NCBI RefSeq assembly: GCF_037975245.1
Contig: NC_092578.1
Location: 1,612,001 to 1,676,000 of the forward strand
DNA: 64,000 nt
Origin: Apostichopus japonicus
Lineage: Eukaryota > Echinodermata > Holothuroidea > Aspidochirotida > Stichopodidae
Direction: 5' to 3'
The notes beneath the pieces were generated by a model. That model saw only the letters and a program-made list of their open reading frames with translations, searched no databases and was not told where the DNA came from. This document shows, piece after piece, positions 10,979 through 59,800 of this stretch. Both the position numbers and the translations under genes were made by a program. Position 1 is the stretch's first letter. Each line of letters starts with the position of its first letter.

Positions 10979-13900
10979 CTAGTACAAAATTACCATGTCA
11001 TCTTGATCTGACAATATCTTGGCGACTGGATTGAGATCTGCTCTTCCTTTGCCATGGTTTCCATGGTGACTAATGGAATAGAGGGAGCACTCTTGGTCAA
11101 GCAATGCCTCCTTGAAGATCAGCTCTGTTTTATCTATAAAAGAGATGTGACAAACTGAACAAATGAGAAATATGACAAATTCGTTGAATTGTTTCCAAAC
11201 TTAAGAAAACATTCTTTAACGTATTAGACAAAACTACAACGGAAAATTGAGGGCTCTAAAAAACTTCCTCAAAACAAAATAAAGAAGATAAGAAATAGTG
11301 AACCTGTCAGTGTTATTTACTGTTAAGTTGTTATTTACTGTAAAGTCCCTCACAATGTGTTATAAGGTTTTTCATGGGTCTTGGTCTACCCTTGTGTGAG
11401 TTTGTAATATTTCAAGCAGCTGGGTTTTTGTCACAAGCTTAGGTTCTCTAACCCGTCAAACATGGTTCAACAGAAATTTTCTTGTATTTTTACTGAATTT
11501 AAGTCACAACTGATGTTTACATTTCTTGTCGTCTCAAAGAGAGCTGACCTTTGTTTTGACTTGTAAATGTAACAGACTATCACTACTGTTTAAAAAACAT
11601 TTACCTAATATGTGATACAAGTCATGACAGATGTCTACTCTGGTATTTCTAGTGAATTAAAGATGATAAGTTCCAAGAAAAACACAGCTACTTCCAGAGG
11701 AAACCTGTTACAAGTTTTGATACATATATTTACTGATTTTACTCCTACCTCTGATAGCTGTTGCAGTTGATGCAAAGGCTTGATGGGGAGGCATCTGTCC
11801 TCTCAGAGATAATGAACCAGCCTTATGAGACCTGCTGGTATCTGGTATTATCTGGGCTCTTTGACCGGTAGGCTTTATGGATGACAGAAAGTCATTTATA
11901 TCTGATTGTAGACTAGTTGCTGGATGTTCTTTCACTGGAGTTGGTCTCAAATGGCGATGTTCTGCAGGCGCTGACAATTTATTGGAAGTCTCAGGGGAGT
12001 ACACAGTCGATGAGTTCTTGGTGTAAACCGAAGAAGTTTGTTTATCTTGCTCTTCATCAAAGTTAAGTTTACCTTGAACATCTTCAAGGCTAAGATCACT
12101 CCTCTGTTGAGGTCCTTTATTCTTGAGAATGCCTGGGTGTGGAGTAGTACGGAAGTTACATTTCTTTGCCTCAGACTGGGGTCCTAACACTTGTGGCGGT
12201 GCAAAAGTGACCATTTTAGCCAGGTTGGGAGCAAGTCCAATTGGAGAATAAAGTATTCCACCCCGTTGTAGCAACGGCTGTTGCATCAAGTAAGACTGCA
12301 TCTGGAAGGCACCGTGATTGGCCATGGGAGCTCTTTGTGCGCCAGCAGAAGCCAAAGTAGGTATAGGTTGTCGGTAAACTTGTTGGGTGTAGGTAGAAGT
12401 GCTCCCCAGTTGCAAAGATGGCGCCATGGTTGCATTAGAAGGGAATTGAACACTAGGTATTTGACGATGATAAGGAACGTCAGCCAATCGAAAAGGTTCC
12501 TCAGAATTAACCTGTGGCCTAGACAATGGTCCAGTGACATTATGTCCTAATCCAGGCATGCAATTGTCTAATCTGTCCTGCAAGGAATGTGAGACTGGCA
12601 ATGTTGCATTACTTGGTTTTGTACAGGCAGAATGTGGTGTCCTTGAAATATTGATTTGCCCATTGTTGCCATGATGTCTCATCTGTAGGACAGACACAGG
12701 GCTTTGAAAATTTCCTTCCAAAGAATTCATGTTAACAGTCTGAAATGAATAGTTTCCTCTTTGGTTAACTACCTCTGCTTCTGATCCAGGCTGAAGACCA
12801 GTAGTGACTCTGTTAGCATAAATCTGGCTACCTTGATGGGTCAGCAGTTGGTTACCCACTTTAGAATTCACTCTCATTAGTTGTGGTCCATCATTAGTGA
12901 CCATTCCTACTGTGGTCTGTAAAAATTGAACCTCTGGGTGCCCCCCTCTTACAGGAATAGAAGAACTGCTTTCCCCACGAGAGATTTGCTGGAGTACCAC
13001 CGGCTGGTGGTTTAAAGGGGCAGGTTCTGCCCTCTGCGACGGTGTGGGCACAATAACACTGCGTTGTTGCTCATCAGAATGAATCCATGCAGTTTTTGGT
13101 GGTATTGATAGATGTGACTTCATATTAACTGGTTCTGTTCCTGTATTATTCATCCTCTCGACAACTGTCACTACATTACCTTGATGTGATGTCTGAATGT
13201 CCTGAGAGTCTGCAGGGATATGCAGGTTACTACTATTATTATTCCTAGAGTTATAATCTCCACTCTGACCGTAAGGAGCAGTCGAATGATAACCGTATTG
13301 CATGGTTGAAGAGCCACCACCCTGTGGCATCGATAAAGAGTGTTCGTATGACATGGTCGATGGATCACCTTGTCTATTGTTCCTGTGTGCTAACAACTCA
13401 TCACTTTGCACTGCTTGCCCCTCAACGGTCAAAGCTTCAAGCCTATTTGCGTCTTTACTAAATGTTCTTGAGTCTAAACTTTGTGGCAGTCTCTGTTTGC
13501 TTGGCATCTCAGATGGTACATCTTCCACCGATTCTGGAACTTTGGTCTCATCTTCCTTTAATTCATCCATCTCAGAGAGCATCTGAATCTCCAGTTCCAG
13601 TTGTTTCTCAAGTTCTTCCATCTCCTAGAAAAGGAGTTGTGAAAATTTCAGCAAAAGAAACAATGTTTTTTGATTGATTAAATTTGTGATTAATCTCCAA
13701 TAACTGTAATTGAAGCACTCCCTTCTTAAACCATCCTCGAGTGACAGAAGCCGAAGAGACATTTTTTCTGGGTAGTAATAAATAATTAATTACTAACTTA
13801 ATTATCAGTAGTATTGAAACCATTGTCAGCAGTTATGATCTTAGACTCATTGAGGGTAATCACACAAGGCTGCAATTTATTTCATTTCATTTCATTTATA

Positions 13901-16900: not shown

Positions 16901-19900
16901 AATTACTCACCTGCCCACCAAAAAGGCTTGCCCTTGGTCCGCCAACACCCCTGGAGGTAGCAAACGTTTGCCTGGATGCTGGTGGTGCACCTCTGTTATG
17001 ATGAATACCAGTGTTGTTCAGAATACTGGCTAGTGCCCCACAGTCTGGATGAAATTCCAGTCCCATATCTACAACAGAAATTAAAAAAGGTCTTCTAAAT
17101 GTATTTTCTTATCCATTTATGTATTTGTCACTCTTTATCATCCATATTGTGTAAGCTACCACAATCACAGCCAGGCTCCAGTTACAAATAATTACCTGTC
17201 ACTATATTGAAATCAAATTCACCGACTCAACCTTTGCTTCTGCATATTCATATACATTTGGACATTTCTCAATGCTGATTGGCCTCCCAATTTACAGAAA
17301 TGTTCTCTGAATATTCATCATCCTTACTTGGATATGACAAATAAATATATGAAACTGTCAAAGAGCAGGAAAAACCCCTCCCAATTCTTAATCTTACCTC
17401 TTTGCTGTTGCACAAGAGACTTCCTAGCTCTCCGTGGGGCATCTTCTTTCTTTGCACCATCAAATGGTCCTTTGGCCTCCTCTGGCTTCCTACCTCTGCT
17501 CTGAGGGACTGGAATACTCTCCAATGTCTTCCTAATAGGTGCGGACCGTTTTATTCCTAAAGTCCAGATGGTGAGTGCGCGAACAGATACACAAGGCAAC
17601 GGTTATTAAATACAATAGAGATAACACAGACACGAGCAGTCCACGAGAAGAAGGAGTGGAAGGGTTATTTGTTTTCCATCGTCTTTAAAGCAGTGGGTTA
17701 CATGTACAAGGATAAGGAGCTTCAGACATTTGACACCTTGCATTTTCACAGGAGATCTATCTACCTCTTACTTTATTTATAATAAATACCAGTCAAGAAA
17801 ATTATCATTGCCATTCAAGGATTAGGCTAAATACCATACTAGTTAATGACAAAGGTCTTTTGGGGCAAGAGAAATAGTAGCAATTGGCGCTTACTTACAT
17901 GAATGTGTAAAAGTAAGTTGGCCTGACGTTTCGATCCTAGCAGGATCTTCTTCAAAGGCTAAATGACAAGTGAGCACCTGTCATTTAGCCTTTGAGGAAG
18001 ATCCTGCTAGGATCGAAACGTCAGGCCAACTTACTTTTACACATTCTCCTACACAGGCTCTCTAGTGGATAAGCAGTTTGTAAACAGTTTTTATGTTATT
18101 TTGATTTTTACTCTACATGAATGATAAAACATGTAGTTGGGTATGTGTGTTGGGAAGAGGGTTATGTAATGGTATTTGGGGGAGCAAGAAACTTTCCCGT
18201 ACCTGTGGTTGCTGCTATTGTGTTGCGGTGGGCTCTGGTCTGCTCCTGTGAGATGCCCTTCTCGGTAAGGATGCTCTCAAGAGACTCATGATCTTCTTTG
18301 AATGGTTCTCTCTCAGATTTTTCATCCCCGTTGTCATAGTATGCACTCTTGAAGTGGGTTCCTGGTCTAGTCAAGTCAAACTCTCTGACCTGATGTAAAA
18401 CAAAGGAGACAGAATCCATGATAGATATCTAGTAAACAATTGATGATTTATGAGGATGTGATAGGACTTGACAAGAAACTGAAGACACAAACAAGGCATC
18501 TGGCAACAGTAAAGTGAACGATGTGTCATGATGACAAATCAGCAGAAAATGTTTTTGTTTTTCTTTAAAATTCATTGCGAATATGCCATGTTTCCCTCTA
18601 ACCCGTGCAGAAATCGAACTAAGAACCCTTGTTATCCAGCACTAGAACTGACCTGTGTGCACGTTTTCTTGTTAACAGCTTTGCCCTGAAGAGGAGAGAA
18701 CAAAAGAAAAACAAAACAGATATTCAACATAGGTTAGAAGGACAAGTTGGCTCTCCTTGAAGAATTTACTACAAAGCTGTTAAAGTATGTAATTTTTTTT
18801 GGCCAAACATGTTGGAGATAGATCCGATTAAAACTACAATTGATCAAACTAAGCGAGAGTTCTTAAAGGTGCTCTCTTCCAATCTATCCACAGATGTTGA
18901 TGAGTGTTAAATTAGACTTCACAGTCAGAAGAAAGTGTTTCTGTGTCCATGCACTGTAACACGTTTGGTTGTATTTTGTGTAACGATAACTCCCACAATG
19001 TGCCAACTGTACTGGTTAAATAAACCACAATAAGCAAATAAACTAGCCATGGATACCCAATAAGAGTTACTAATTGTTACACCATTGGCGATTGGAAAGT
19101 GTGATAACTTGGGAACACAGGACAAAGTCTCATTATGCCATAAAAATACCAGACTGAAATTTAAAATTGTTGTTATTTTAGTATTATTCAGCAAAACAAG
19201 TTGACATATATTTTCTATGTATAAAGTCTGACAGACATTCTCAAATCTTCCAAAAGAAACATTTGCCTTTATCTTAGCATGAGCTCAGCATGCAGCAAGG
19301 GCATGTTTTTTAAAAATAATTTATTTTATGTTAAGACTATGAATACAGTGATTAGATATATATACTTACCTTTTCAAATGTATTGTGCCACTTTTTATGT
19401 AGTTTGGCAAAGTCTGGTACTGGCCTTCGTTTAGACTTGGTATCTGTCTTTCTCTTGGGATTCAATGCAGATGAGGAACTCACTGGAATTTTACTGTCAA
19501 AAGAAAAACAAAATGCTTTCGTTATAGGAGCTTATACTTAAACACATGTTGGACAAAGGAATCTCAATCTGCACTTTTGCAGCCAACCCCCCCCCCCCCC
19601 ACTCCATCATTTCATCAGTTTGTCACACTAGTACTGCACATTACTTTTCATGTCTAACAGCAAACGTAAGTTTAAATTTTACTTGTATTTCACTGAAGAT
19701 CTCTTGCAAGCAGCCAAACTACTTCCCTACTACTTTTTCTCCTTTAATTCCTAGCCTGTGAATTGAACCATTTACAGTAATTTCAGGCTGTGAGTCCAAT
19801 GCATACTACACACATACATTCATGAGTAACTACACTGAATAGGTTTTTCTGGTGATAAACAATGTGAAACTTATATTATGAAGAGCAAAACATTCCACAA

Positions 19901-35989: not shown

Positions 35990-38900
35990 ATGGATTGTAA
36001 ACATTCAATATTCTTATTACTGTTACTGTACTGTGCGAGGTCTATATATGCCCAGAACCTAGGTAAAGTATCCTACACAAATTTTTATCACATCAAGCCC
36101 TTTTAGGTCTTTCCTCTTAAATTTGTGGATTACATGATCTAGAAATGAACCCTGTGATAACAACTCTATGAGAGTACAAGTTTTCCATCAAAAGTTTGAT
36201 TTAAGAGTTGCTCAAAAAGAACCCCAAAATACGTAAAGTTGGACGTAATATTAAAGCTTTCTGTATCACCTATAGCACCACAAGAAGTGGTTTGTAAAAT
36301 ATACCACAAATTCATCCAAGTTGTCAATTTTCAACATTTCATGATTCATCAGCCTTAAAACTATTTGCATGGGACCTATAAATGGAAGATACTTTGGCTG
36401 GCCATGGAACAGTGTCATTTTTTTGTGACTAATTTTTTCGAAGTAAACTCCTGGCTACTTTTAAATTATAGTTGTGATGCTAAACTTTTTTTTTTTTTAA
36501 ATTGGCTAAATATTCTTAGAATTCAAGAATCACACCGTCCTGACATAGCATAATAAGGCGATGTCGTTAATCTACTGTATACTTCACAAGACAATGTGTA
36601 TGCAGATCATTCGTGCTTTTTTTTTTCATGTATATAATTTTGATATAGAACAGTGACCCCTTTCACATCTATATAGTTAGCAACAAAGCACTAGTAGGAT
36701 TGGACACAACACTTTTTGAAACATTGAAATATATCTAGTTTTTTTAATTCAAGTAATTTCTTGTTTATTTTGGCTTCAGGCGTAAGTCATAACACTTTTA
36801 CATTTCAAACTGCTGCATTTTTCACGCTTACACTTTGTTCAGGTGAAGTAGTGGTCTTCGAGATTATGCAGGGTAAGTTAACATTGGAAAGTCTCAAAGT
36901 TCAGTCTCAAAGTTCTCTCGAGCATCTGCGGTATTTCATGACTTACATTATTTTTGGATCAAATCTTCTTGAAAGATTCAATTTCTGTTGACAAACTGTC
37001 TTAAGGAAATGAATTACATAATTGTATGTAGGTTGCAAGAAAATCTGCTGTTTATGTTCGCGACATTGGTGAAGAATGTTCCATGTCGATGTTGATTGCT
37101 TCATGTGGCATGTTCCTTCCATTTGATACGATGCAAGAAATGCAATTTTTTTTTGTAAAGACGCAAAATTTCTGTGCTTTCCTGTTCCCCTTGTTTAAAA
37201 TGAACTTCAATAAGCTGTTTTGTGATTCTATGTGCACAAATGCTAGTATGCCCTGTGTGTACAAGTTTTCTAAACATAGTTCTTAATGTGAACATGCTCC
37301 CTACCTCTGTGCAATGCTAGAACACAGGCTCTGGATAAATGGTTAATTCAATACTGTCGATATCATCAGTTCTGCTGTATGAAGTACTGCATAGACCAGA
37401 CTCAGAAACTTGAAATGCTCTTACTTTTCCCCTGGTTTCTTCAAATAAGGGGAACTTAAAGAGGATGTTCTCTTTACCAGTTTCGAAGTAAGCAGCTTAT
37501 GTAGTTTGTACAAATGTGTGATGAACCAGACCTGCTAAATGCACACAGTTAGTTTAGATTCCTGATATGGCTTATTCTTCTCTCGTGATTATGGTCGTCA
37601 AAAAAGTTTTCTTATTAGTGTCAACATTCATACAGTTTTTGATAAGCTGTACCTTCAAAGTACAGCACGCCAATCCTTGTCTGAACAACGATACAATTAA
37701 ACACTTCATTTGCATTTGACCTGACCACACTGTGGGGATGTCCTATTTAATGGTTGAAGGAAATACAAGATTCCTGAAAAAGGTTATCTGCTATGTCAGT
37801 CCCCCAAAACAATAACAAGTTTTGTTGAATTTGTGGAAGACTAAATTTTCTGCATTTTGCGTCAAACAGTAGGGGATGAAAATTTACCTGTCACGAGCAG
37901 CCGAATGGTTGAAAGAGAAGAGGTCTGGTAAATGGTAATTATCTTAGATAAATGCCAGAATATTAAAAGTTTTGTGCCAGAAATGTGATTTAGTGTGATT
38001 TTGGCGAAATTATTTCGCAGTATTTGGCATGTAATATTTACTGTGAACAGTATGTGACATATAGCAAAGGACTGTGACCTACTGTAACCCTCTCAACATA
38101 CTGATAGGTGAATCAAATCTTTTGCGTGGACTATCTGTATCAAGTGCGAGAAAGTCCTTTAACGCACTGTTTTCTTAAACACAATTGGATGTTTAAGAAA
38201 ACATTCAAGAACCACCATCTTGTACTTTGCACACATGGACAAAATATTAATGTGAATGTATTTTGCTTGTTTCAAGATCTTACTTTCAGATACATGGAAA
38301 ATTATGCTATTTAGAGAACTTGGGATAAAATATTTTTCTGTATGGAATACAAATGAGCAGAATATCAAAATGTTTCCCTCTTGATGACAGAGAAAGTTAA
38401 ACAGTTTGTAAATCTTGCATTCTGAAAGCAATCTACAGTATAAACATTTAATATTTATTACTTTCGATATTAAACATTTCCTGCATGTTTCCTCGAAATG
38501 ATCTGCTGAATTATGGCTTTCTGTTGCTATTTTGATGGTTATTGCTAAATGAGCTTTTTAGCTTCCCTGCCCACCTGCTTGCATGTAAGCGCTTTACTTG
38601 CAAGATTTAAATGTCATGTTGCTGAGTATAGTGTTGAGCCAATATGGCCGGTTACAGTACCCTGTTGCCCCTATCAAGAATCTGTTCGGTCTGTACGTTG
38701 TTAAATGTAAATAAAATCTTATATAGCGCACTACGCGCGATGCATCTGTGCGCTTTACACACAATCTAGAAAATACAATGCCAAAAAACAATAAATAGAA
38801 AAAACAGTAAATACATATTACCATCTACAGAAATATACAGGAATATAAGATCGAAAAACTATTAAAAGTACTGGTGAAGCGTAAAGCTATACAGCCTATT

Positions 38901-41900
38901 GAAAGCTAACCTGTTCACTTCTACTCATTCATGTGATAAATATGTTATTGTTTTCATGATTTAAGATGAGTGTGGTTTCCATGGTAAAGATGTTCCTTTC
39001 GAAATTCCAGATCGAAAAACTATTAAAAGTACTGGTGAAGCGTAAAGCTATACACCCTATTGAAAGCTAATCTGTTCACTTCTACTCATTCATGTGATAA
39101 ATATGTTATCGTTCCCATGATTTAAGATGAGTGTGGTTTCCATGGTAAAGATGTTCCTTTTGAAATTCCAGTACAAAGTTGTGTACTATACTGTATGGTA
39201 CTTACACTGTAAATTGGTTTGTACAATACCTAATGTACTGTACATTCTGTAGTCAATAGAGCAGGTCTGGATCCTGCAGAATACTGTATGGCCTACTGTA
39301 CATGTAATACTATTAAAACATAATAACCGTATTTTCTCATTGGTTTAAAACTAAAAAGAAGCTGGATCAGGTAAACCTTGAATCTGAATCTGCATTTTTC
39401 AAAAAATTTTTTTTTTCATTATTTCAAATTTTAGTGCAAAACATAATTCCTTGTCCTATAAAGATTTCTGTTATTGTTACTGAACTTTGCTTTAACAAAC
39501 AATTGTTTGTAAGTCAGCCAGTCGCAAGCAGACTTTAGTTTAATATTTTATTTATGTAAATCAGTCAGACATTGATTTGTCTAATGCAACACCTCTCATT
39601 GTCTGAGAATGCTGTAATTCAAGGTGTCAATATTGTCAGGCAATTACTGTAGACGAGCAAAGCCTTAACCTGCTGTTTACAGGTAAACCCCAAATAGATA
39701 GCTATTGTGTGAGAATGCTAAAGCTCACACTGTGACTTTAAGGCTTTAAGCCTTGTGGTTTCAACATTGTGTTACTTACATTACATTCTAAGTTTATGAA
39801 TCATGCTGTAGGAATCATCAGCACATTAATTCGTTTATTATATTATTATAAACAGTGAGGTCTCACACAAGGTGTTATGTTCTATGTTTATCTGTTAAAA
39901 AGATTGCAATACATTTCACCCTCCCCCTGACCTCATACATGTATTAGAATCTACAGTAAGTCAGACTTTTAAGTGTCACTACCATAATTTGTTATTGTTA
40001 ACGAAAACATCCACATAGCTATCTCATCCCTGATTGGTCATTATATATATATCGTATTGTTGATGCTTGGAAGGTATGGTTATAAAATGAGGCCACATGA
40101 TACTAGCTTGCGGTTGAGAAAACAATTTCTAGCCCTTGTGATGTCAGAGGTAGAGCACTCTAACACTATACACGTAGAACAGCTTTTAAAGTAACTGCAA
40201 TGTAGTAAGTTTCAGACATAATATACTTGTGAATGTGGGTTAAGTACAGTATTTGAGAGCCATTGGGAGGGAGGGAGCTGTTAGGTGAGCCATCCTCTCC
40301 CCCTCCCTGCCCCCCCCCAGGTTTAAGGCCTATATTTCTGTAGAAAAGGCTCTTAGATTCCATGTGGTGGGTATATTTGAAATATTGAATGTAGTGTATG
40401 TTTAGCTCCATCATGGCAAGGGAACATATTCTACAAGGTACTGCAACTTATCATTGCTGACATTGCTAATAAGTGGAATCAAACTATTATCAAAGCATTC
40501 GATTGGAATACCAAAAAAAAGAAATCCACATTATTCTTGGCATATTCTTGGCATATTCTTGGCTTATTATGAAAAGTTACATTTTAAACATATTTTTTTC
40601 TCTGAAAGTGTAACTTTCAGTGGAAGTATACTGTATGTGAGGTCAGGGTACATGGAAAGCACACCTACTGTACTGTGCCTATCTGTTTGAAAACACAGTA
40701 AAGATAACCTGTTGAATTTTACCATGGAAACTCACTGATATTGTCTTACAAGCAGTAAGAACTGGATGTGTCTGTCTGTCTGTTAGATCAATTATCACTT
40801 TCGACAGAATGATACCAGCCACATCAAGGCATACGATAGAAGCATGTGTGTGTACAAGTCTGTAAATTCAGACAGTACAGTATTTATGGAATGTAACAAG
40901 TATTCTGTGGTCATGTTTTCAATTTATACAGTATGTATGTAATGAATATCTAGTCCGCTTTTGCAGGATATGTACAGTACAGTATTTTGCAAGTCTGCGA
41001 AATATATTTCCTTCACGCCAATGTTTACCATGACAGAGATCTCATCTGTATACACCATGAATTAGCGTAAGCTCAGCATAATTCTTTGTTTTAAGCAGAG
41101 AAATTTTTAATCTGAACTGAAATCCGATGAGTAAATTACAGGATGTAGCTCTCAATCAGGAAGCTATTGTGGTAAATGTACATGCCATCACTCATCTAGC
41201 ATTGTCTGGTCTTGATGTCATTGAGCTATTAATACAGTGGGACCTAATATTAATTGTAGGAATATGACTGTTACCATAGGAATATACTTGTATCTATGAT
41301 AATGCCAGGGTTTGTTGGTATGGGGCCTGGGAGGGGGGGGGCAGAGGAAGGGACAGGGGTAAAACATGTTTGAAGCTTAAAAGCAGTTTGTGTGGGTTTC
41401 CATTAAGTTTGTTATGTAAGGTACAAAATGTGGATTTTAAAATCCCACAAGATAACTGTTATTATGATTATTATTTACCAGATTTATATAGCGCTCTTTT
41501 CATGCTTTTAAAGTATGTTCAAGAGCGCTTTAAAATGACAACAAAATGACAAAACCCTTAAAATATGAAGACGAAAATTAAAAAATAAAATTGACGCAGC
41601 TTAAATTTAATATAAAAAAATATATACGAAGAAATAATTTTAAAAACAATGTAGATTTACAGTGAAGTTCCTAAAAAGAAAAAGTGAGTTTTAAGTAATT
41701 TCAAGTAACAAATGACAAAACCCCTTAAAATATGAATACGAAAAATAAAATGGATGCAGCTTGAATAAATATTAATACAAAAAAATATACTAAGGAAAAA
41801 TTTTGAAAACAAAATGTTCAAATATGAATACGTCGGCTCCAGATTTGTGAGGTGATGTTGAACAAACAGTGTAGTAATGTGGCAATGAAATATAGCTGTA

Positions 41901-44900
41901 GATCTGTTGTTTGTAAAATTTAAATATATTTGCTTAGGAGCATCTGGTTTTCAGACATCTGTCAGTATTTTAGTTGTTAAGTCCAATCCTACCCCTCCTC
42001 CCATCCCTTCCCACCCTAACATGAACAATATGTCCAACCTCCATGGTTTTCTTTCATTTTGTTCATTCTCTTTGCAAGACTAGTGTATTGCACAATGCTA
42101 GACTCAAATTAATAAATTATTCCATTGTTGGATAAATCTTATAGAGACCTATAATCAGAAGTACTCTAGGTAGTATAAATTTTCCTAATTGAAGTCTTGT
42201 TCAACAGGTGCACGAATAAAGTCTTGTTCAACAGGTGCACAAATAATGCTGTGAAAAACTGTACTATTCTGTACATGTATGCAACTTCATGTATGTGAAC
42301 TGTACACATCCATGTACAGTATAGTCCTTGTACAGTACTCTAAAACCTCTCTGACAGACAAGTAGGTTGTTGTCTTACTTAAGTGCACCCTACAGGATTT
42401 GTGCGAGTTCTAATTTCTGACACTTCCTTTTTCCTTGCCATCTTGGATAATGACTTTCTATACTTATAGTCAATTCTCACCTTGATTAACATGGAAGGAT
42501 GTCACCCGCTCTTCCTCTGTCATTGACCTAACTTAGCATATATATACTAAAGATTCGTCAAATGCTCATCATTTCGTCTGCTAAAAATATGACGGAATGC
42601 TCGGCAGACGTGAATTTGTGATATGCTGTATGTGCAGAATTTTGTCAATTAGAATGCACTGTTAGGGTAGTGCATTCTGATTTGTCTTACTACAGTGTAA
42701 CAAGTATTATTTGCAAGGAAAGGAAGAAAAAGAAAAGAACAAAAATGTAAAGAGAAATTGAAACAAAAAACGAAATAACACCCAGTTTCACTACGTAGAC
42801 CTACTTAACTTTTTTGACTTAAACAAGTTTGTCTGTAGAAGTATGGGTAAATCTCTGATCGGAAAGGGAAGGGGGACTTCAAAAAGTGGTTGAAATTTAA
42901 AGGTTCGATAACTGGTACTTATTCATCCAATCAAATGGTGTCAATTGTAGGTTGATTTTAGGAACATTGCAGGTTGCCCCTGTAGGACAACCTAGAATTT
43001 TATTTAAAAAGTTTTCCAAACAGCACAATGGTTGTCCAACAAGTTAAATGTACACAGCACTTGAGTAGTGCCACGTAAGTACTGTACAGACTCTGTCACA
43101 TATTTGTGAGTCTGACTTACAGTACTCAAGTAATGTATTCACTGCCATCACATGACACCCTGGCAACCAATCAGCTCTTGGTGTAGAAACAGGCACTGGC
43201 TACTGTACTGTACTCAGCGTCTACTGTGAATACTCTGGACGTTTTGTAAGCATGCTGTAAACTTTGTCAGATGTCATCTCTAAAGTGTCACATTTAATTT
43301 GACTCGCATACCTGTAGTCGAATAAATTGTTTTCAATGTCAAACAGGGTGACATATCGTTATTTCTTTGAAGAATAATTCGTTCTTCCTTATAAATGCTT
43401 ATGGTATAATCAGTCAGATGGTTTATTGATCAATTTTTTGAAGTAATTGCACCTTTGTGTCCATTTGTTTTCCTTATTTTCAAGTGGGGATAAAAGCACT
43501 TTAATGGACAATTTTTTGTCTATTTTTATGCCTTTGTTGATCAATAATGTTTTTACGGATGCCATAAAATTGAATTACTCACCCATAGTCGATAGTTTTG
43601 AAGATGTTACAGTACAGTACGTATGTATCTGTGTAGTCACTGCATTTAACATAGTCAAATCAGTTCTTTGCCCACAGATATTTGTACCAGCCTGTAAGGT
43701 GTCCCTTCCAGTCTTCCCAAGAAATTAAATTAAAAATATTAATAAATTTAAATTTTGACAGTCTTGGTTATGATAATAACTGGTAGGGGTAAGACAGTTC
43801 TTCATTTTCAAGAACGGTACAAGGTGTGAACATCCATCATGTATTTCTACAGTACAGTATGTTTCAGTAGAGAGAATCTGAAATTATGAAATTTTTTGGG
43901 ACAGTGAAGCATGTTTCAGAAGAATTTGTATTTATGAAACTTATTGTGAGGAGATAGGTAAGTGAGTAGTGAAGTACTGTTAATACCCAGTTCAAGTGAG
44001 ATGTAGAGGGGGGGGGGAGGGGTTGGAGGGAGGGATAGAGGGAGGGGTCTTCTGTATTTTGCAGATTATCTTGAGACTATAGTTTGTTTTTTCCGTGTAT
44101 ATATTAATATTTTCATTTTTCAAACATTTCCTTTGTGCAGAAGATATATTTACACAAGAAAACAAGAGTAAGTAATTGAATGTGTGTTATGTACAGTTCG
44201 TATCCTTGGTACAGCCTATGGTATAATCAGTAACCCATTATTATTATTACTATGATTAATCCCAACTCTTTTTCATTTAATAATTTTTGTGCTTTTTCTT
44301 CTTTCTCTATCCTGGCCATAATGATCCAAAGCTGGACAATTTGCCTCTTGTTCTTGTCATATTATCCCAATGTTTCCCCGAAAATTGTAACATTCTTTTG
44401 TTCCGAATATTTTTAAGTGCACCTTTCGTTTTTAACAAAGAGTTCAAAGTTTTGTTAGTATGCAAATTAATATGATCCATTTCTCTACCTGAAATCTTTC
44501 CTTCCTCTCAATGAGATACCGTATATCAACAAAACATTTTGTTAAGTATATCTCTTAACAAATTAATGATTACATCTTCACTGAATGAAGCGTAATGTTC
44601 CTCTTTCTGCAAGACATATTCCATGTTAAAAGTTTCTGCATTTTCCAACCTTCATAAATCAACATTTTGAAACCTTTCCAAATTGGGCTTGCCAAAGTTC
44701 AAGAATTTGTGAAAGAAGACTACTGTACATGTATGTACAGAACTGGAGCTGCAGAAGTAGTGAAGTACTGTGTGCAGGCTGTGTGCACAGTATGGTGTGT
44801 ACAGGCCATACTGTATGTGCAGGCAATATGTGCAGTCTGGGTGTGTACAGTAGGCTGTGGGTGCAGGCTATGTGTGCAGTACTGTAAGCAAAGGCTATGT

Positions 44901-47900
44901 GTGCAGTACTGTGTGCCGACTGTGTGTGCAGGCTGTTTGCAGGCTGTGTGCAGGCGGTGTGTGTAGTACTGTGAGTGCAGGCTACAGTATGTGTTCAGTA
45001 CTGTCTGTGCAGACTGTCAGCTGTGTTTGCAGTGCTTTGAGTGCAGGCTGTGTGTGCAATATTGTGTGCAGGCTGTGTGTGCAGGCTGTGAGTGTAGTAC
45101 TGTGTGTGCAGTACTGTGTGTGCAGTACTGTGTGCAGTATTGTGTGTGAAGGCTGTGTATATAGTACTGTGTGTGTAGGCTGTGTGCAGGTTGAGTGTGT
45201 AGGCTGTATGTGCAGGCAATGCATGCAGTACTGTGTGTGGTGCAGGCTGTGTACAGGCTGTGTGTGTAGTACTGTGAGTGTAATGTGCAGGGAATAATTT
45301 GATGGGGAAGGGGGTTGTAAGTAGTTATATAGGTGAAACCTTGTGTGTAGATTTAATTATACTGTAGACCTATTATACTGCTTAAAATCAAATATGCATC
45401 AGAAAGTACAAATTTATGAGGAGGATCTCTAGATCTTCTCCCTTTACATAGGTGTCAGCTTTTACCTCAAAGATGCCACAGCCACACTCCTCATTTTTGA
45501 ATCCTACATTCCAACCCTGATAGCCTCCTTTACAGTTGTTATGCCACTTTATGTTACTTTTCCCAGTTGCACTACCCTTGATTGTTTGTTTGTGGTTGAG
45601 AGGGGGGAGGGAGGGGTGAGGGAGGGAGGGGGTCTAGTGGAATGAGATAATGTTGTTGTTTATCCCTTGCCAATGTGGAGCAGTCCAACTAACGATGTGA
45701 CTGTCTTTTCACCCAAGTGTACTGTAATTGGGAGGCAAGAAGAAATATTGTTCTGGGTGCAACGTTCTTTCTACATTTATATTACAAAGTTACGTCTTTA
45801 TGACAAATTTTCTGCCCCATTCTCCCGGTTTTATCCTGAGTTGCTGCACCAATATGTGTTTTAATGTAATATTGCCCGTAGCATGGAATGTTTGTAAATG
45901 TCTCTGCATGAATATGTTGAAATAAAAAAGTATGAGCCCAAGGGAATGTTAATTCAAATTATTGTCATCTTCTTTGGTGAGAAACAGTCCTGATTCTCCT
46001 GAATGTTGATTGAAATTGAAAGTAATTCATAAATTGCTATACACACAATATTGTGAATTATTCAAATGATACAATGATGTGAATATTCATGAATATAAAA
46101 GTGGAGCTCAGTACCTTGTTCATTATGGGGATGTTGGGGGGGGGGGGGGTTAGGGGTGGGCTTTAAGGTAAAAGGAGAGATCAGACCAGTCATTTACAAT
46201 TTGACTTTCAGTAATCAAATCTTATTCATAGTGATGGAAAATGAAAGTCTGTTCATGAATGCAGACCTTCTTTTTTAAAATCCAAAATCTCTGTAACCAG
46301 AAAGGAGAGAGAGAATGGGCTATCACCTGGCAGGCAATGAACTGCTAAATGTTACTACAGACAGTAGGCTTTGCAGGTTTGGTTGATGACAAGATGTCAT
46401 TAATTATTAATTTTTATTTTACTGTATGTCAGTACAGGAAACCCAATTCTCTCTTTCCGGCTTTCTATATACAATTTATTCAACTAGTAATCTACACAGT
46501 CTACAGCTTGGCAAAACTTTAATTAGCATCGTACAGTAGGTACAGTAGTTTCACTTAAATTGCACAATCAAGTCACAGTGTGAATTTCAATTACTGTAGA
46601 ACCTTTCGTCGTAGTATTGACTTGAATTGGGACTGTAACTTATTGGAGTAGCCTCCCCCCCCCAAATATATGCAGAATATGATCTGTAGAATTGAAATCC
46701 CATATGGTGAGACACTTGTCCCAACTGGTACGGGCACTTGTAATTTACATGTTCAGGAAGTCAATAATATATCTTATTTATTAGATCTATACATATGTTC
46801 TTTTGGATAGATGACATGGGGACTACGTATACACATGAAATTGTAAATTGGAATGAGTGTTTAGAATTGAGACAGATTAATGATACTTTTGTACTGCATT
46901 GTGCAGTTACTGTATTCAATACTGTATGTCAGTACACGTGTACTGTAGGGTACAGTAATAGATCTGTGCAATATTGAAAGATGTATGATTTTGGCACTGA
47001 ACTAGTACAATACACAATAATACAATACAAATGGAAAGAGAGAGATACAGTACTGCACATGTATCATTATTGAACATAACATGCATACTTAAGTTTGATA
47101 GTTACAAAACATGATGTACAGATGTACCACATACTGTATGCATTGAAACTTTCGTCCCGATTTCATTTCCTGATGTGTGTTTTAACTCAAGATGTTTATA
47201 GTCTTGGTTTTACTTGAGGACATGCCATACTACCTTTTCTATAGTTGACATCCATTGGATTGATCTGCATCACTGGTTCAAATATTCTTCCCTGGATGGT
47301 GTGTCGGCTCAAACATTTACTTTTTGTGCTAAATGTTGTTCTGATGGTCCATTGGTCCAAACAGTCAATGATAGGATGATATCAGAAAGTCAGCAATGAG
47401 ATCATTTGGTTAAGAAACTGCATTAAATTTATCTAGTCATGCTGCACTCACGTACTGTACTGTAAAATTTACATTTAACCAACAGAGCAGGAGTTACATT
47501 ACATATATACACTGTAAATCCATGACATCAAATATGTTTGCCATTACAGTATAAGTATACATAGCATGGTTTGAAATGACACTGCAACAAAACGGCGTAA
47601 GTAAACCACTGGCTTGTCCACTACAAATCATTATTAGTATGGACCAATGAATTTTCAGACTAATGAGCCTACATTTATAGCCGAACATGTTATTAAAGGT
47701 GAACATGTTGTTGTAGGTGAACATGTTATTATAGGTGAACATGTTGTTATAGGTGACAATGTTGTTATAGGTCTACATGTTGTTATAGGTGAACATGTTG
47801 TTATAGGTGAACATGTTGTTATAGGTGAACATGTTGTTATAGGTGAACATGTTGTTTTAGGTGAACATGTTGTTATAGGTGAATATGTTGTTATAGGTGA

Positions 47901-50900
47901 ATATGTTGTTATAGGTGAACATTTTGTTATAGGTGAACATGTTGTTATAGGTATACATGTTGTTATAGGTGAACATGTTGTTATAGGTATACATGTTGTT
48001 ATAGGTGACCATGTTGTTATAGGTCTTCATGTTGTTATATGTCAATATTTTGTTATAGGTCAATATGTTGTTATTAGTCAATATATTGTTATATATCATG
48101 TTGGACTGCTGGACATTTGGACCATTGAGTGTTTGGATCCAGTGGTTGTTATCATATAGATTGCATTTATGTAACAGCCCTGGAAATGGAAGCTCAGAGC
48201 AGTCTCAGTAGTATAAGAGATTCCTAAAATCTGTTGAAGTCTGCTACTGGATCAGGACTGTGCTGTGGATATCGGTTGTGCATCGTCTAATTTCCTGCAT
48301 CCTAGACGTCGGAAAGTCAGTCAAAATGGTCCCTCTTCTTTTGCTGGACAGTTCTAAGCATGCACTACTGCATGCTCAAGTAGAAGCAACAAAAGTATTG
48401 ATATATAAGTTATCGGATAATATCCTTGATGTAATGAAAATATTATCTATTCGTCTAATGCAAACTGTTTCTTGCCAAAAATATGATTCAGTGTTTGAGG
48501 TTCAATTTAGAACAAGCAGAAATCATTGCCAAGAAAGTGGCACGGTTGATGTGAACTTCTGTCTGATTGGATGTTTAATGTTATATAGTTTTGTACATGA
48601 CGTGTAAAGAAACAAACTTTCACAGTAGCCTACAGTATCATTCTCGTAAGCACTTTGTCAAAAGCAATGCTGCCAGGCTGCGTGGGACATGCTTATTTTG
48701 ATGTCCCACGCTTATTTTGTGATCCACGTTTCACCACAACAGGCAATGCTGGTCCTTTGTGAGATAGATTCAGCACTTGATTCTGCTATTAGTTTGTTTG
48801 ACAAACTGCCCTAAAGTGTTCTTTTAACGTACAGTAAATATGGATGTTGATGAAATAAAACAGTATTGTCAATTTTGATTTTTGTGTGTGTGGATACACC
48901 TACAGTACAGTAAAGCACAGTAGGTGGAACAAATGATGAACTGCCTTTGGGATGTTTATGTTAATGTTAGGAAAGTATTTGGCCTCAATTTGGAAAGTAA
49001 AAGCTGGTGACTAATAGTTTCCTTCCTTGAAAGTTTTCGTAGGTACCGTCATACATGCTGTTGTATTGGTTATACTTCCTTGCCAAAACCCAAGGCAGGA
49101 TAATGACGTGGACCACATTCGGTGAATTGTTTTGTGGCTACTATATACCAAAAAGATGGTAACATTTTAACATTACACCATGATTATATAGTGTACGCAC
49201 ATACATGATGGGAGAATTTGAACTTTCCCCATGAGAGGATTCATCTTTGCAAAAGTACCCAACTTCAACTGTTGTAAAACCAAACTGGTTTTTTGACCAG
49301 AATTAACTCTGAAATTTGTAAAGACCTTTAAATGTTACACTTGGATACATGTATGAACACCTCTACTTCGACCTGTTGAAAGTTTCATGTTTAAGTAGCT
49401 TTTTGAGCTTGATCGATTTTTTCCCCATTCCTTTCAGGAGGGGGTGGGGGAGGGGTAAGATGTTTAGATTTAAGCCATATATACTGAAAGAGGGGTATCA
49501 TATGGGTTAATCCATGACCCTGTGGTTACCAACATCTGTGGGGAAAATGCATTGTTAGAATGAAAGAAAATGTTGTTTCCACCTTAACTACCATATATTC
49601 ATTAACGATATAAACAACAGCATTTGCTATACTTTTATTACGTCGCGCATTGCGTACATGTATGAGTAACATGCATTGATTAAACACGACCAGCGTATAT
49701 GTGTTATGTATAATAAACCAGAGTAAATGAATACAACAAAGCAGGTGTCACATTTTTGGTTTTGTACCCATGTCCTATAAAGATAGCAAACATAGCCTAG
49801 CGAGGCCTACATTATGCCATACTGTTTTTACAGCAGTATAACAGTAAAGTGAAACTGCACTAAACAGAAAACATGATACTGGATTCATATGTTTGCATAC
49901 TGTGTGACTGACACTTCAAAGTTCAAAGTCTTGGTACAGTAGTAGTAAATGTAGCCAGGTAATATACCACAACACCTCTCCCATTATGCTGTGTATTAAT
50001 AGCAAGTTATCAAAAGGCAGTAAAAAAAATATATTAAAAAAAACCTCCATCAGTAACAGCAAGCTATATAAATAGTTTGCGATGAAGGAAAGGATACCGT
50101 TATGATAGCCCTCTTGAATTTGTTAGATTGTCGAAACAATTCTGCATTTTTGATGTACAGTAAGAGTGCCAGAAATAACTTAAAGGCATTGAAGAATCGC
50201 CCTAAACTGCATGCGGCCATCTGAAGAAGTTAACTTTCTGTTGCTTGCAAGTGACGTTTTGTTTGTGTCGCTAAAAAATGCAGACAGTAATGAAACGTGA
50301 TACCTTGTTATATGTACAGTAGCTGGACCTGAGATGTCCATCGCTGTATCGTTTGTATACTGTGCTGTGGGTATTACCGCAGCTGTATGTACTGACTGTA
50401 CACTATTGTCTAATTACCGACGGTAGCAAGCCGTGTGTGTATTTTCTGGGATCGATGGTGGTGTTTAACACTTCTGTTACACCTCATTCGAAAACTAGCT
50501 CAAATTACAGGCATAAGACGTTTCTTTTTGCGCGAGTCTTCACACCCTTTAAGATTGCTCATATCAGGGAGCTGCTACTCTAAGTAGCAGCTCCCTCCTC
50601 GTACTGTATAGGTCTGTATATATGGTACAGTAGATATGTAAATATGAAGAGTAACATCACTTTAATATATATGCACCTTTGGAGGATAAAACTGTCACTT
50701 TTTTGGACAATGGCAAACTTTGTTTATCAGGTGTCCTGTAATCACCTATAGTGAGTTGGGGGAGCAGTGTACAGTTGAATACTAGAGTGGAACGGTGGTA
50801 CATTGCATGCAGAGGAGAAGATTTGACATTTCATTTCAGCATTTTTGAAATTTTATGATCAAAATCTTTCAGCAGGTGGATTACATGTACTGTTATAACC

Positions 50901-51619
50901 TCAGGAGGTGAAGCTGTGTGAACATTGTAACCCTTCTGGCAATATCAGGTTAAATAGAAACATTCTACATTTTTTGGATCTGTATGTCTTTTACAAAGTA
51001 CAAAGTGCGATAGAGTACAACTGGTGTAAGACCTTTGTAAACATTACATATGTATCAAGAGTCAAGATATTGTGGGATGAGGAAGAGGGGATATTTGGAG
51101 GGGGGGGGGGAAAGGGGAGAAGAGGTGGATGATATTGATTATAGGCCTTTTTGCTAAAGGAAACAGGTTTTGCTACAATCTTAGTGTGAAAACCTGAGCA
51201 AGGTAATCAATTTTGTCACTTATTTGTGAAAGAATGAATCCCTCAGGTTAGGATACAGAAAGTAGTTCGAAGAAGCGGTCACTGGGAGGTTACCATCTTG
51301 AAAACGAAAGAGAAACTGGAACTATCTTCTTTTTATTTATGTTGAATGATGGCAGTGTAAACCTCCACTAAACTCCATTTCCTTCCATGGGTGTCTGTCA
51401 TTAGTTCTGTTTAGACCTGTGTAGATCTTATTGTTTGCAGAGAAGTTTCATCGATATTAACCCATCACTCGAGGAGGTTAACACTCTCAGCTTAAAACAT
51501 TGGATCAACTGTCATTTTCGAGGCAGCTACAATACTTTTGTACATGTACAACACAGTACAGAAGGCCTAGTGTGAACTTACAGCTGGAGTTAATTGGCTA
51601 ACAACAGTTGTATAGTTTC

Positions 51620-51674
<55 letters not shown>

Positions 51675-54600
51675 GATAGATATATATATTTTTATGAAAA
51701 GTTCTACTTTTGGAGAATAAGCAGGGTGACAGAAAACTTCTAATAAACAAGAAACAGTCACAAAAAATAGAAAGAGAACATTAAGAGCAAAGGAACAGAT
51801 CGGAAAAAGAAAAGCTGCATGGATGGATCATTTTATGAATCCTCATCTGTTTTAGTCTAAGATGGACAAAATATAGTATTAAGTGTCTCTAAAAACACAG
51901 TGTGATAATTGTACAAAAAATGATGCGATTGATGCGTTCAAAACAGTTGATATGGCGGACACATGTTCAGTTGTGGTCTGCTGGTAAACAGGTGGACTGA
52001 TCGCGATTAAACCATTTTGTCTAGTAGCTCATTAATACTCATTACTGTAAGCATAAAAATTACTGTAAACATCTGTGAGTACTAACATGAAGATAGTGTG
52101 CGTGAGTCATATTACATATGTGGTAAACAGTCCATCAAGGGTAACAGAATACACCCCAAGCCAAGGTCACTTTGAGGTAAAATAAAGCATACAATTACAT
52201 TACATTACAAATGTTCCGTTCCAATTTTTTTACGAGAATAACTTGAGGAGGGAGGGAGGGTAGAAGGGGGGGGGAGGGGTGGAGGGGATAGAAAGACAAT
52301 CATTTTGATAGAGATGTGTGCTTTATTCGTTATGTATTACTAATTCTTTTTGTATTTTTTCCCCCTTTACAGCTGCTAGCCCTTGCAATGATGCCAAGAC
52401 ATGTGGGGCCTGTATCGTGTTGGACCCGTCCTGTGGCTGGTGCACACAAGGAGTATGTCTCTTTTCCCTATTTTGAATTTGGTCAAGGGAGGGGGTAGGG
52501 GAAAAGTGGGAGAAATATCCTTTAGTTTGAAATGATGTACCACAGAGGTTTACAAAGACAAAGAAGATTCAGTTCAAATTTAGTAGCATGTTTTTTCCAG
52601 TGCCCTTGGGCACTGTGTCAAAATTAGGAAACTAAAGGGGCTGCAGCCTAATGCACTGAAGGGGCTGCAGCCTAATGCAGCCAGGCTGTGTAGGATTATA
52701 TTCTTTTCTGCCATACTGTTTCACACAATAGGCAGAAAGCATCGATCTGTAGTAAACAGCTACTTTTAGAGGAAAGAAATGATAGTTCTCAAGTTATACT
52801 ACATATAATATTTTTCGAGCTCTTTAGCAGTATCTTGTTCTTTAGTGCTTGAAAGTTTTGTTTTTGTTATATTGGATACTGTTAAGATGGCAGACTTTAT
52901 GTCGTTTTAGTGAAACCAGATACGATGTTCCTGGAAACATATAAGGATGTCTGTTTACCTGCTGGTACCTGCAGAATTTGGAGCCGTGTCTTTTCAGTGA
53001 AGTTTGTTGTGTGATAGCTTTCATTGTAATGTGAGATGTCGTCTTTGAGTTAGTTTGACCTGAAAGGATTGGGCTTCAATCGTCTCTGACCGAAAGCGGA
53101 TACGGAGTTGACATATTGAGAAGCAGAACGTTTTCATCAATGGAATGTCCTTATGGTGTTCAGAATTCTGTTTAATTATTACAGCTTTCTGAGAAGTTTG
53201 TGGAGGAAGTCCTTACTTACTTCGCTCCCCGCTTACCTGTCTCCCCACAACCTTAGCACCCTATTCTACCGTGTCTAGTATGCCCTGGTAATCTTTTAAC
53301 ACTGTGCACCCTCAGTGACCGGTCATACCCGTGGGGAGACAAGTAATCGGGTCACTCGTAAATATATAAACCAGTAAGTTTTATAATAACTAAAATACAA
53401 GTCCCTAGAGTGTTATCGTTAAATTTTTGGATAAAGCGTCGACTCCATTGACGTGACAGATTTTCTCCAAAATGTTTACGTTGAATTTGAAACATGTCCT
53501 AGCGGATATTTGATTGAATTAAACTTCCACAGACTCTTCTGAAACTTTACCTTGTTATTATCTTGTTATTCCCTGTGGCATTTATAGTCAATTTGTTTGC
53601 TTGTGGAATGTTTGCCGGCAGTTGGTATATCAAATGAATGAAAAATAGACCTTTCATTCTGAAGAATACCACATAGCCGTGGAGACAATTTGATGATGGC
53701 AAACCTCAAAACTGGCAGTTATTAAAGGACATTAGAAGTTCTGCACCTCAGGGTAGATCTATTAAAAGGAACCACTAAACCTTGGCTATTATGTTTAAAT
53801 AGTGCAAAACTTATGACTGATAGTGACCCACCTTCAAAGTTCAGGAAATGAATGGACATGATATGTAATGTTGTACTGGTACCATGAGGGGGGTTATGCG
53901 GTTATCTTTAGGTGGGGGTGAAGTATATATTTTGGGATTGGTTGAATAAATTAGTTTAAGAAGGAAGTGGGGATGTGTGACCAGACAAGCATTCGGGAAG
54001 TGATGGCGTGGTTGAAGAAATAAGTATCGGTAGAAGTTGGAAAAATGCAAAGTTGCTAAAAAGTCTTGGAAAGATACAAGAAGTATCCACGGTTTGGATA
54101 GGACTGGAAAGGATGAAGGAGCTGATGTGGAGGGGGAGGGAAGGGTGGGCAGGGTGGGGGGAAGCATGAAATGCTGGCAGTGGTAGCACTCATCAAGTGT
54201 TTCACACTTAATAGCCACATTATAACTGAATGAAATTTTGAATCACATTAGTCTGTACTTAAAAAAATATTAATAATATTAATAAATATTTCCTTTTGAA
54301 AGTATGAGTCATCATTGTCGTCTTTTAATGTTATTCACAATTTTTACTCAGAACTTCACAGATACCGGCAGTCCTAGATGTGACACCATTCCAAATCTCC
54401 GTATGCAAGGATGCAGTGAATATACAAGTCCTAATAGTTCTTATACGATTGATTTGGTAACTATTTTTTTTTAGTTTCATTAAATATACAAGTCCAAATA
54501 GTTCTTATCATATTGATTTGGTTCCTGTAAAACTTGTTTCTCACCTCAACAATCAAATTGTTGATGTAAATTGACGACAGTAAATTGATGTCGCAAAAAG

Positions 54601-56860: not shown

Positions 56861-59800
56861 GAAAATCGTAATGAGTTGGAAAATCAAGAACAGTGAAAAA
56901 ACTTTCAGCCCCCACCGGGATTCGAACCACTGGCCTTCCGCTCTGTACGCGGACACTCTAACCACTAGGCTATGGACGCTGATTGTATGTCCAGAGGTTC
57001 GAAACCGGTAAGGAAGGTCGTAATTCCACTGTAGACGTTTGTCACCTGTATCGAACAATACTAGTTCTGTTTTTGGTGACATATTTTGCCTTACTCTAGA
57101 GATCAAACATGATGCTAACCAACTCGAAATCATTTGTGATTCCTAAAGCCGGATTCCGAAATATATATATATATCATAAGGATAATTTTTGTTGGTTTCC
57201 GATTATGTGTCCAGCTGAAGAGATGAGTCAAATCACAAGTGACTTTCGAATGGGTTTTGGATCGTTCGTGGACAAGGTGGTGATGCCATATGTCAGCACC
57301 GTACCGGCCAAGTAAGTATTTCTCTCAGCAATGGTGGGTTGAGTGAATTGTAATATTCAAAGTGAAGGAGTGGAGGGAGGTGGAGGGGGGGGGTAGTTTG
57401 ACAGATCGGTAGCAGTCTCACATAATATGATAACCCTAAAAAAAAATACTAACAGAAAAGCTTTTTTTAGGGGTTATAAAGAGAAAAGCAGAGTAACAAG
57501 ACTATCTGAGTTGATCTACCTGACTGTTTCAAATTTATTTTTCTCCTTCCTCTATAGATGGTTTTATTATTTTTTTATTTTTTTTGGGGGGGGGGGGTGG
57601 GATGTTGTTCTTATTGTAATTTCTGGTTTTGCTGGGTATTGACTTAGGAATATTTCTGCTGATACGTTGATATGATTTATGGAAACGATGAGTCAGTTAA
57701 TATAAAAAGTAAAATCTAACTACTCTCTGACTAACTACATAATTTCTTTGATAAAGATCAAATGTTTTAACTTCTAAATAAAAGTGTTTTTTTTTAAAAA
57801 TAATTTTCTGAAAACTGACTTTTATTTTATTTCATTCCCATCAAGAGAATCATTTATCCGGTAACCGTATCGCAAAATGCTATGGAAAATGGTCAAAGTG
57901 CTATAATACAATTCCCAAAGATGTATAGCAGGTGTTTCCTTTACACAGGAACTATCATGTTTTATAGGATACAAAATTCAGTGATTTCAATACTGATACA
58001 CAAAAACTGCTAGAAAACACTAAATTATTATTCTCTGCCATTTATTATTTTTTTTTAGGCTAGCAGAACCTTGCAGTGGTTGTCAGGCTCCATATGGCTT
58101 TAAGAACGAACTCAGTCTGACTGGGGATACAAGTGAATTCTCTGTAAGTATAACTAACCACCAATTCAAATATCATCTCCATTTCATGCCTACTTTTAAG
58201 GTTATGCAGAGCTGCCTACTGGTAACGATTTCTCATTATTTTGGATGGGAAATCATTTCAACTATATGTGTGTATGGTTTTATTCCTGGATGGTGGTGGT
58301 GGTGGTGGGAGGGGGGGGGGGAAAGATGCCAAAATCTGTAATATAAATAATGTATGCCTTACAAAAAACTGCTGAATTACTAGACTAATGACAGAATGAC
58401 CTAATTTGACCCTTAGAGTCATTTTAATGACATACATGCTATTTGATTGGTTTGATTTCCTAAACAATGTATGATGAATCAAGTCATACCAATCAAATGA
58501 AGGTTAGCCTTACTAGGACTTGAAAAATTACTGTAGAAAAGACAAAAGGACATATATTGTTTTGAAATGTAACCTTTGTGGTATTCTCTACACATATTAC
58601 AGTATGTGATAGAATGTGGGGGGAAAAACAGCCCAAGGGTATGAGGAATCATATTCATATGTTCAGCAAGGCTTGTCATTAAAGGATTGGTTCAGGTGTT
58701 TGACATGTCTATTTTGTATGAAAGAGCACAAAAAGACAAAAAGGACAGTGAAGAAACTACCATGATAGCATGCTCTGTTAAGGAGATATGACACTTTGAA
58801 GATATCAAAATTTCTTTGAAAACGACTGGTGTAAAAAGACTTACTGTGAGGGTGTGACGTCACATCCTCATTTCCTTAACTTTTGTGAATATATTTCTTT
58901 AAAAATTATTTACATTTTTTAACACATTTGAAAATAATATTATCAAAAATTCTTCAGATGTTTAATCTCAAATACTTCCTTTGACAAATATGAGATCTCC
59001 TGACATATCTTTTGGTTGAAAGTCATGAAATCTCACAAAATATTTAGAGAAAAAAACAAAGACTTTTCAGGAATGTGAGGATGTGACATCACAGCTAGTC
59101 AGATTTCAGCAGTTTCTACACAATCTGATAAAACTTTACACTTGAATATCTCTTTAACTGAAAAAGATATTTGAACAGTTTTTCACCATTGTGTTTCTTT
59201 TATTGTCCTCTTTCATATAACATAAACATGTATGACAACTGAACCAATCCTTTAAATTTCCTCCACAATGACAGTTGTCTCATTATTTTTGCTGTGTGAT
59301 TCCTAGCTGATGTTCATAGTTTTTATGCAAGTTTATACCATGGGCATAAAGTGGTGGGGCAAGATTTCACAGCTAGTAACTGTCGGCTGTCTATGGTCAC
59401 AAAGTTATCGGTGACGTTCCGCTTGTAAAAATGTTTGTAATGTCGGCTTAATAAAAATGAAGACTTTTGAAGATGTTCTAATCAGTACAGGTTTTAATAT
59501 GCAGCAAACTCCTTTATAATATTATAGAAATCAGTGATTACTAATGTATAGTTTAATTTGGGAGATGTTTAGTGGTAATACATTGTCAATCATTTAATTA
59601 AGTTGTCCATTTTCTTTTTAATTATAGAGAACAATTAACCAGCTGCAAGTCTCTGGAAATCTCGATGCCCCTGAAGGGGGCATGGATGCCCTTATGCAAG
59701 TTACAGTATGCAAGGTCAGTATTACTACTAAGTTAACTGGTGTGGCAACCATACTTCAGGAAACAGATTTTTTTTCCTGCAATGTAAAGAAAGAGTAAAA

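Follow-up and report, generated by a model that had tools for sequence, protein, structure and literature searches.

The heptamer TACAGTA and its reverse complement TACTGTA, which form a single odd palindrome, TAC[A/T]GTA, are concentrated in the interior of the first intron of an integrin beta-like gene. Between 38.0 and 52.4 kb their density is 9-fold that in the rest of the window (the whole 64-kb stretch of DNA that was analysed) once tandem arrays are masked, and this enrichment is not a product of chance. We assign a probability of about 0.5 to the reading that most of the heptamers are footprints left over time by the excision of a Tc1/mariner-type element that hopped locally and has since been lost, in which case the intron may record many jumps by one element or several.

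Heptamer density and word specificity in intron 1

The limits of the intron were read from the sequence by eye. A signal-peptide exon borders it on one side and a Cys-rich exon on the other, and the reading frame at 56244 contains what we take to be the integrin beta I-domain motif. These limits bear out the preliminary description, which had placed the enrichment in integrin intron 1. Since the densest stretch runs from 38,080 to 50,632, the cluster occupies the interior of the intron and not its whole length. One TACTGTA lies at 36024-36030, within exon 1, in sequence coding for the signal peptide.

36063..52372, + strand: intron 1 of the integrin beta-like gene, from GT at 36063-36064 to AG at 52371-52372 (reading by eye)
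38001..52400, no strand: region used for inside/outside tests, with 57 heptamers, or 53 once arrays are masked
38080..50632, no strand: densest heptamer cluster by scan statistic, with 51 sites outside masked arrays against 13.7 expected

The window holds 78 heptamers (on the + strand, 38 TACAGTA and 40 TACTGTA). Exact counting gave 54 between 39,100 and 52,100 (28 TACAGTA and 26 TACTGTA on the + strand), 13 at positions 1-36,000 and 6 after 52,500, close to the respective figures of about 50, about 10 and "few" that had been estimated by eye. The preliminary description also stressed that the words occur on both strands; both words are indeed present, but because they are reverse complements of each other this adds no information. 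The exact k-mer count against a Markov background that it proposed was run on the window, and the enrichment held. With 11 tandem arrays masked (listed by hand, so that the masked statistics leave out four heptamers in 44768-45300), 53 heptamers fell within 12,806 bp inside the test region and 21 within 46,992 bp outside it (binomial p = 3.6e-20), and the cluster contained about 4 per kb. The third-order Markov expectation was 13.7 inside and 12.1 outside. The fifth-order expectation inside was 42.2, which means that the heptamer's own hexamers carry the signal. Among 7,423 canonical 7-mers the heptamer was by far the most regionally enriched, and the words ranked 2 and 3, ACTGTAC and ACAGTAC, both overlap it. 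In 30 third-order Markov simulations, which considered 7-mers with at least 8 copies in a window and used cluster-sized windows moved in 2-kb steps, the smallest p for any 7-mer was 3.9e-9.

We compared words of the form TA-Nk-TA, with k from 0 to 6, inside and outside the region. With three bases between the TAs, CAG/CTG was the sole strongly enriched class (53 versus 21, p = 3.6e-20); the next classes were CTC (4 versus 2) and CCA (7 versus 8), with p = 0.02-0.03 before correction. Among flanking dinucleotides, the two trinucleotides were raised chiefly between two TAs (CAG 28 versus 8, CTG 25 versus 13), and the centres A and T were about equally frequent inside (28 versus 25 on the + strand). 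The strongest class with k = 4 was TA-CATG-TA, with 8 copies inside and 2 outside (p = 1.3e-4), or 6 versus 2 with heptamers masked. Words corresponding to footprints of other element types were only weakly enriched in the region (TACATA/TATGTA 22 versus 53, p = 0.07; TACCATA/TATGGTA 7 versus 8, p = 0.03), and neither TACGAGTA/TACTCGTA nor the double-filled form TACAGCTGTA occurred in the window.

The enrichment belongs to the exact heptamer. Its 20 one-mismatch neighbours (TACTGTA being set aside as the same site) numbered 81 against about 55 expected, an excess of about 1.5-fold that was greater for transitions (1.8-fold) than for transversions (1.35-fold). A sharp word with a modest neighbour excess is what a decaying exact insert would give. 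Microsatellite decay is a weak explanation of the heptamers, given that these neighbours are barely enriched, and a likeness to miR-101 was dropped because the heptamers are intronic and lie in both orientations. The related words GTACA, CACAG and TACATGTA likewise have raised counts, either close to the heptamers or across the region, which does not fit a pure footprint reading; TACATGTA, raised in 38001-52400, may represent a variant scar or may have no connection with the heptamers. C-rich/G-rich tracts are enriched in the same interval as well, CCCTCCC occurring 16 times inside and 9 times outside.

Excision footprints as a possible source of the heptamers

TACAGTA and TACTGTA are given as the consensus excision footprints of Sleeping Beauty, of the Tc1/mariner type, in extracts of PMC3432063 and PMC4378557. 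According to an extract of PMC7827188, the cut made by the transposase lies three bases within the element, and the resulting 3-nt overhangs are left at the donor site by NHEJ. The mouse genome contains more than 300,000 such heptamers (extract of PMC4378557), so single occurrences are meaningless and it is their density that needs explaining. The heptamers studied here resemble the Sleeping Beauty footprint in having the same seven bases, both centres, TA ends and unrelated flanks. They differ from it in being natural and in numbering about 50 within 13 kb of one intron; in addition, no element, transposase or empty allele was seen in the window.

If the heptamers are footprints, their source would have been a cut-and-paste transposon of the Tc1/mariner type, since lost, whose overhangs were 3 nt long and whose terminal bases were CAG...CTG. 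Each insertion would have duplicated a TA, and each excision would have left three terminal bases between two TAs, with the central mismatch resolved to CAG or CTG so as to yield TACAGTA or TACTGTA in unrelated sequence. Repeated nearby re-insertion within intron 1, where a 5-bp scar would be harmless, could then have produced some 35-50 scars, some of them later doubled by slippage or small duplications. The dispersed micro-repeat seeding put forward in the preliminary description is close in spirit to this reading, but it did not point out that TA-CWG-TA matches a Tc1/mariner (Sleeping Beauty) excision footprint exactly.

A degenerate tandem array at 44741-45300 contains four heptamers together with many sister units. 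We deleted 5 bases at each of 523 positions in this array and realigned the result to the rest of the array. Two of the four testable heptamers showed an insertion-like state.

44983..44989, + strand: TACAGTA, read as a clean CAGTA insertion at a TA when compared with the sister unit that begins at 44855 (29/31 bases identical)
44846..44852, + strand: TACAGTA, likely CAGTA insertion at a TA when compared with the sister unit that begins at 45183 (33/39)
44809..44815, + strand: TACTGTA, which fits no better as an insertion than as native sequence (gain -4 to 0, depending on flank length)
44880..44886, + strand: TACTGTA, which fits less well as an insertion than as native sequence (gain -13 to -8)

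Removal of CAGTA at 44983 gave the largest 5-bp-deletion gain of all 523 positions (14), and by this alignment insertion at a TA is well supported at that site. It is likely at 44846, which ranked 15 of 523, and is not supported at 44809 or 44880, the negative gain at the latter being better read as a substitution, probably in a CAGTACTGTG unit. The chance of two of the four array heptamers falling within the top 15 is 0.005, for a threshold chosen after the ranks had been seen. A 5-bp deletion beside 44809, away from the TA footprint place, gained 10, and when the deletion length was varied, removing 7 bp at 45014 gained 14, equal to 44983. When the test was extended to the whole window, the mean gain was -1.6 for the 78 heptamers and -1.8 for 250 control TA-NNN-TA places, no better than controls because sites outside the array are without sister copies; the best heptamer gain was 12 (44846), whereas the best controls reached 8-9, and 44983 gained 5. 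The heptamers of a second array, at 62.2-62.7 kb, can be read by eye as insertions or as substitutions.

The flanks of the heptamers are unrelated. At 31 well-separated sites of the 53, flank similarity was no higher than at random TAs, which agrees with the earlier statement that no single repeat family explains the heptamers and leads us to reject a dispersed repeat family (MITE/SINE). Self-BLAST matches that contain heptamers were confined to the two tandem arrays, at about 44.8-45.3 kb and 62.2-62.7 kb. The only notable positional bias outside the heptamer was a preceding G (25/53), partly due to tandems; counted outward from the TA, C was raised at +1, R at +2 and G at +4. Tc1/mariner targets, those of Sleeping Beauty included, are usually AT-rich. 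The flanks here are, in contrast, less AT-rich than those of other TAs, which counts against footprints: A+T over 6 bp on each side was 0.563 at 41 thinned heptamers and 0.651 at 957 TAs of the region (p = 4e-4), and the outward pattern TRT was found at 4/82 heptamer half-sites versus 121/1816.

A search of the window for inverted-repeat pairs starting with CAG (less than 3 kb apart, 14-base arms, up to 2 mismatches) found none. Tc1-like MITE terminal ends were rejected as candidates, as none of the 17 listed pairs starts with CAG; the listed pairs that start with CTG consist of the heptamers themselves. Tc1/mariner transposase motifs gave 13 loose short-pattern matches in the window, none convincing by eye. 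That no such element was found in the window counts against the footprint reading.

The window contains several other repeats and open frames. An 18-bp minisatellite at 47585-48165 is open on both strands; its + frame encodes repeated hexapeptides with a Pfam match to Hexapep (E = 4.3e-23), probably as an artefact of the 18-bp period. A near-perfect 146-bp palindrome at 17901-18046 (95.9% self-complementary, with TA-bounded arms inside) is perhaps a foldback MITE. A TA-bounded stretch of about 575 bp at 58680-59254 has 14-bp perfect inverted repeats, AAGGATTGGTTCAG, and is MITE-like, with ends that are not CAG. At 56905-56981, a tRNA-Cys-like match that lies within an open frame, close to an (AT)n tract, is possibly a tRNA-derived SINE, and at 11708-13624 on the - strand a 638-aa open frame had no Pfam match at E 0.001.

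Spacing, orientation and alternative sources

Overlapping heptamers had been reported in the preliminary description, and six pairs that have a TA in common (TACAGTACAGTA or TACTGTACTGTA) were found, every one within 38.0-52.4 kb.

40973..40984, + strand: TACAGTACAGTA, heptamer pair with a common TA
43201..43212, + strand: TACTGTACTGTA, heptamer pair with a common TA
43608..43619, + strand: TACAGTACAGTA, heptamer pair with a common TA
43848..43859, + strand: TACAGTACAGTA, heptamer pair with a common TA
47453..47464, + strand: TACTGTACTGTA, heptamer pair with a common TA
48901..48912, + strand: TACAGTACAGTA, heptamer pair with a common TA

We simulated the random, independent placement of 50 footprints in the intron (400 runs). 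Both the number of gaps shorter than 50 bp (19 observed, 9.3 simulated) and the number of same-orientation 5-bp tandems (6 observed, 1.1 simulated) exceeded the simulated values, and neither observed number was reached in any of the 400 runs. Clustering and tandems above random insertion are a further point against footprints. Re-insertion into an old footprint was rejected as the main source of the 5-bp tandems, because half of them should then be mixed CAG/CTG, yet 0/6 are, and because same-orientation pairs are more numerous than simulated. Small duplications may account for part of the excess.

Two rival explanations draw on this spacing. The heptamers could be a homotypic array maintained by selection, in which a protein that binds DNA as a dimer would recognize the palindromic TACWGTA; the array would then act as an enhancer within the intron or as a docking region at the level of the chromosome. 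The AP-1 site is likewise a 7-bp palindrome, similar in form to TACWGTA, and the odd palindrome with its central W, the short-range clustering, the weak G/C preference immediately outside the heptamer and the raised counts of TACATGTA and GTACA would all suit such an array. The meiotic pairing-centre 12-mers of C. elegans are dispersed short-motif docking regions that share with the heptamers a short exact word, regional enrichment and both orientations; the word here is different, lies within a gene intron and has no known protein. We nevertheless consider a binding-site array unlikely: binding sites usually tolerate change, whereas one-mismatch variants of the heptamer are barely enriched, the sites span 12.5 kb and not one enhancer-sized block, and two of the array heptamers appear to have been inserted. 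Our literature searches, which targeted excision footprints and transposons, found no description of a TACWGTA binding array.

The heptamers could also stem from local mutational copying without a transposon: template switching, slippage and the tandem duplication of short segments would have carried a 5-bp unit bounded by TAs, along with related words, through the intron. In favour of such copying, all six 5-bp tandems and 19 of the 26 neighbouring heptamer pairs less than 100 bp apart have the same orientation, duplications of 9 bp and 18 bp are visible at 46532/46541 and 52043/52061, the tandem count is above that of the insertion simulation, and the degenerate array rich in CAGTACTG sits in the middle of the region. 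Copying leaves unexplained, however, why CWG between two TAs should be the one raised class, as well as the occurrence of both orientations over 12 kb and the unrelated flanks, and we regard it as about as unlikely as a binding-site array. Least probable by our estimate is an ordinary regional word bias of the genome, expected in many introns, since although the heptamer is mildly high outside too (21 versus 12.1 expected), each 2 kb of the rest of the window, including the sequence after exon 2 of the integrin gene, holds 0 to 3 or 4 heptamers, compared with 4 to 13 inside.

Scale of the proposed hopping and implications

Under the footprint reading, the events would concentrate around one locus, as in the local hopping of cut-and-paste transposons. 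Published ranges, as given in extracts of PMC4378557 and PMC7827188, are about 100 kb for the P element and megabases for Sleeping Beauty, whereas the cluster here, at 12.5 kb, would be far tighter, and this scale argues against footprints. That one or very few germline-resident Tc1/mariner elements moved dozens of times over kilobases within the intron and were then lost is a tentative suggestion, which we hold with some doubt. Among the literature matches listed, judged by their titles and abstract openings, we found no paper on clustered or accumulated excision footprints; the broader matches were papers on transposon tools, studies of single elements and work on other subjects.

Should the footprint reading be true, the intron would preserve, in nature, a history of hopping over very short distances that can be read from the footprints even though the element itself is gone, and the kilobase scale of that hopping would be far tighter than the extracts cited above report for Sleeping Beauty. 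Excision scars could then be counted as k-mers in any reference genome, and such counts would reveal past transposon activity without a surviving element, together with the distances of germline hops.
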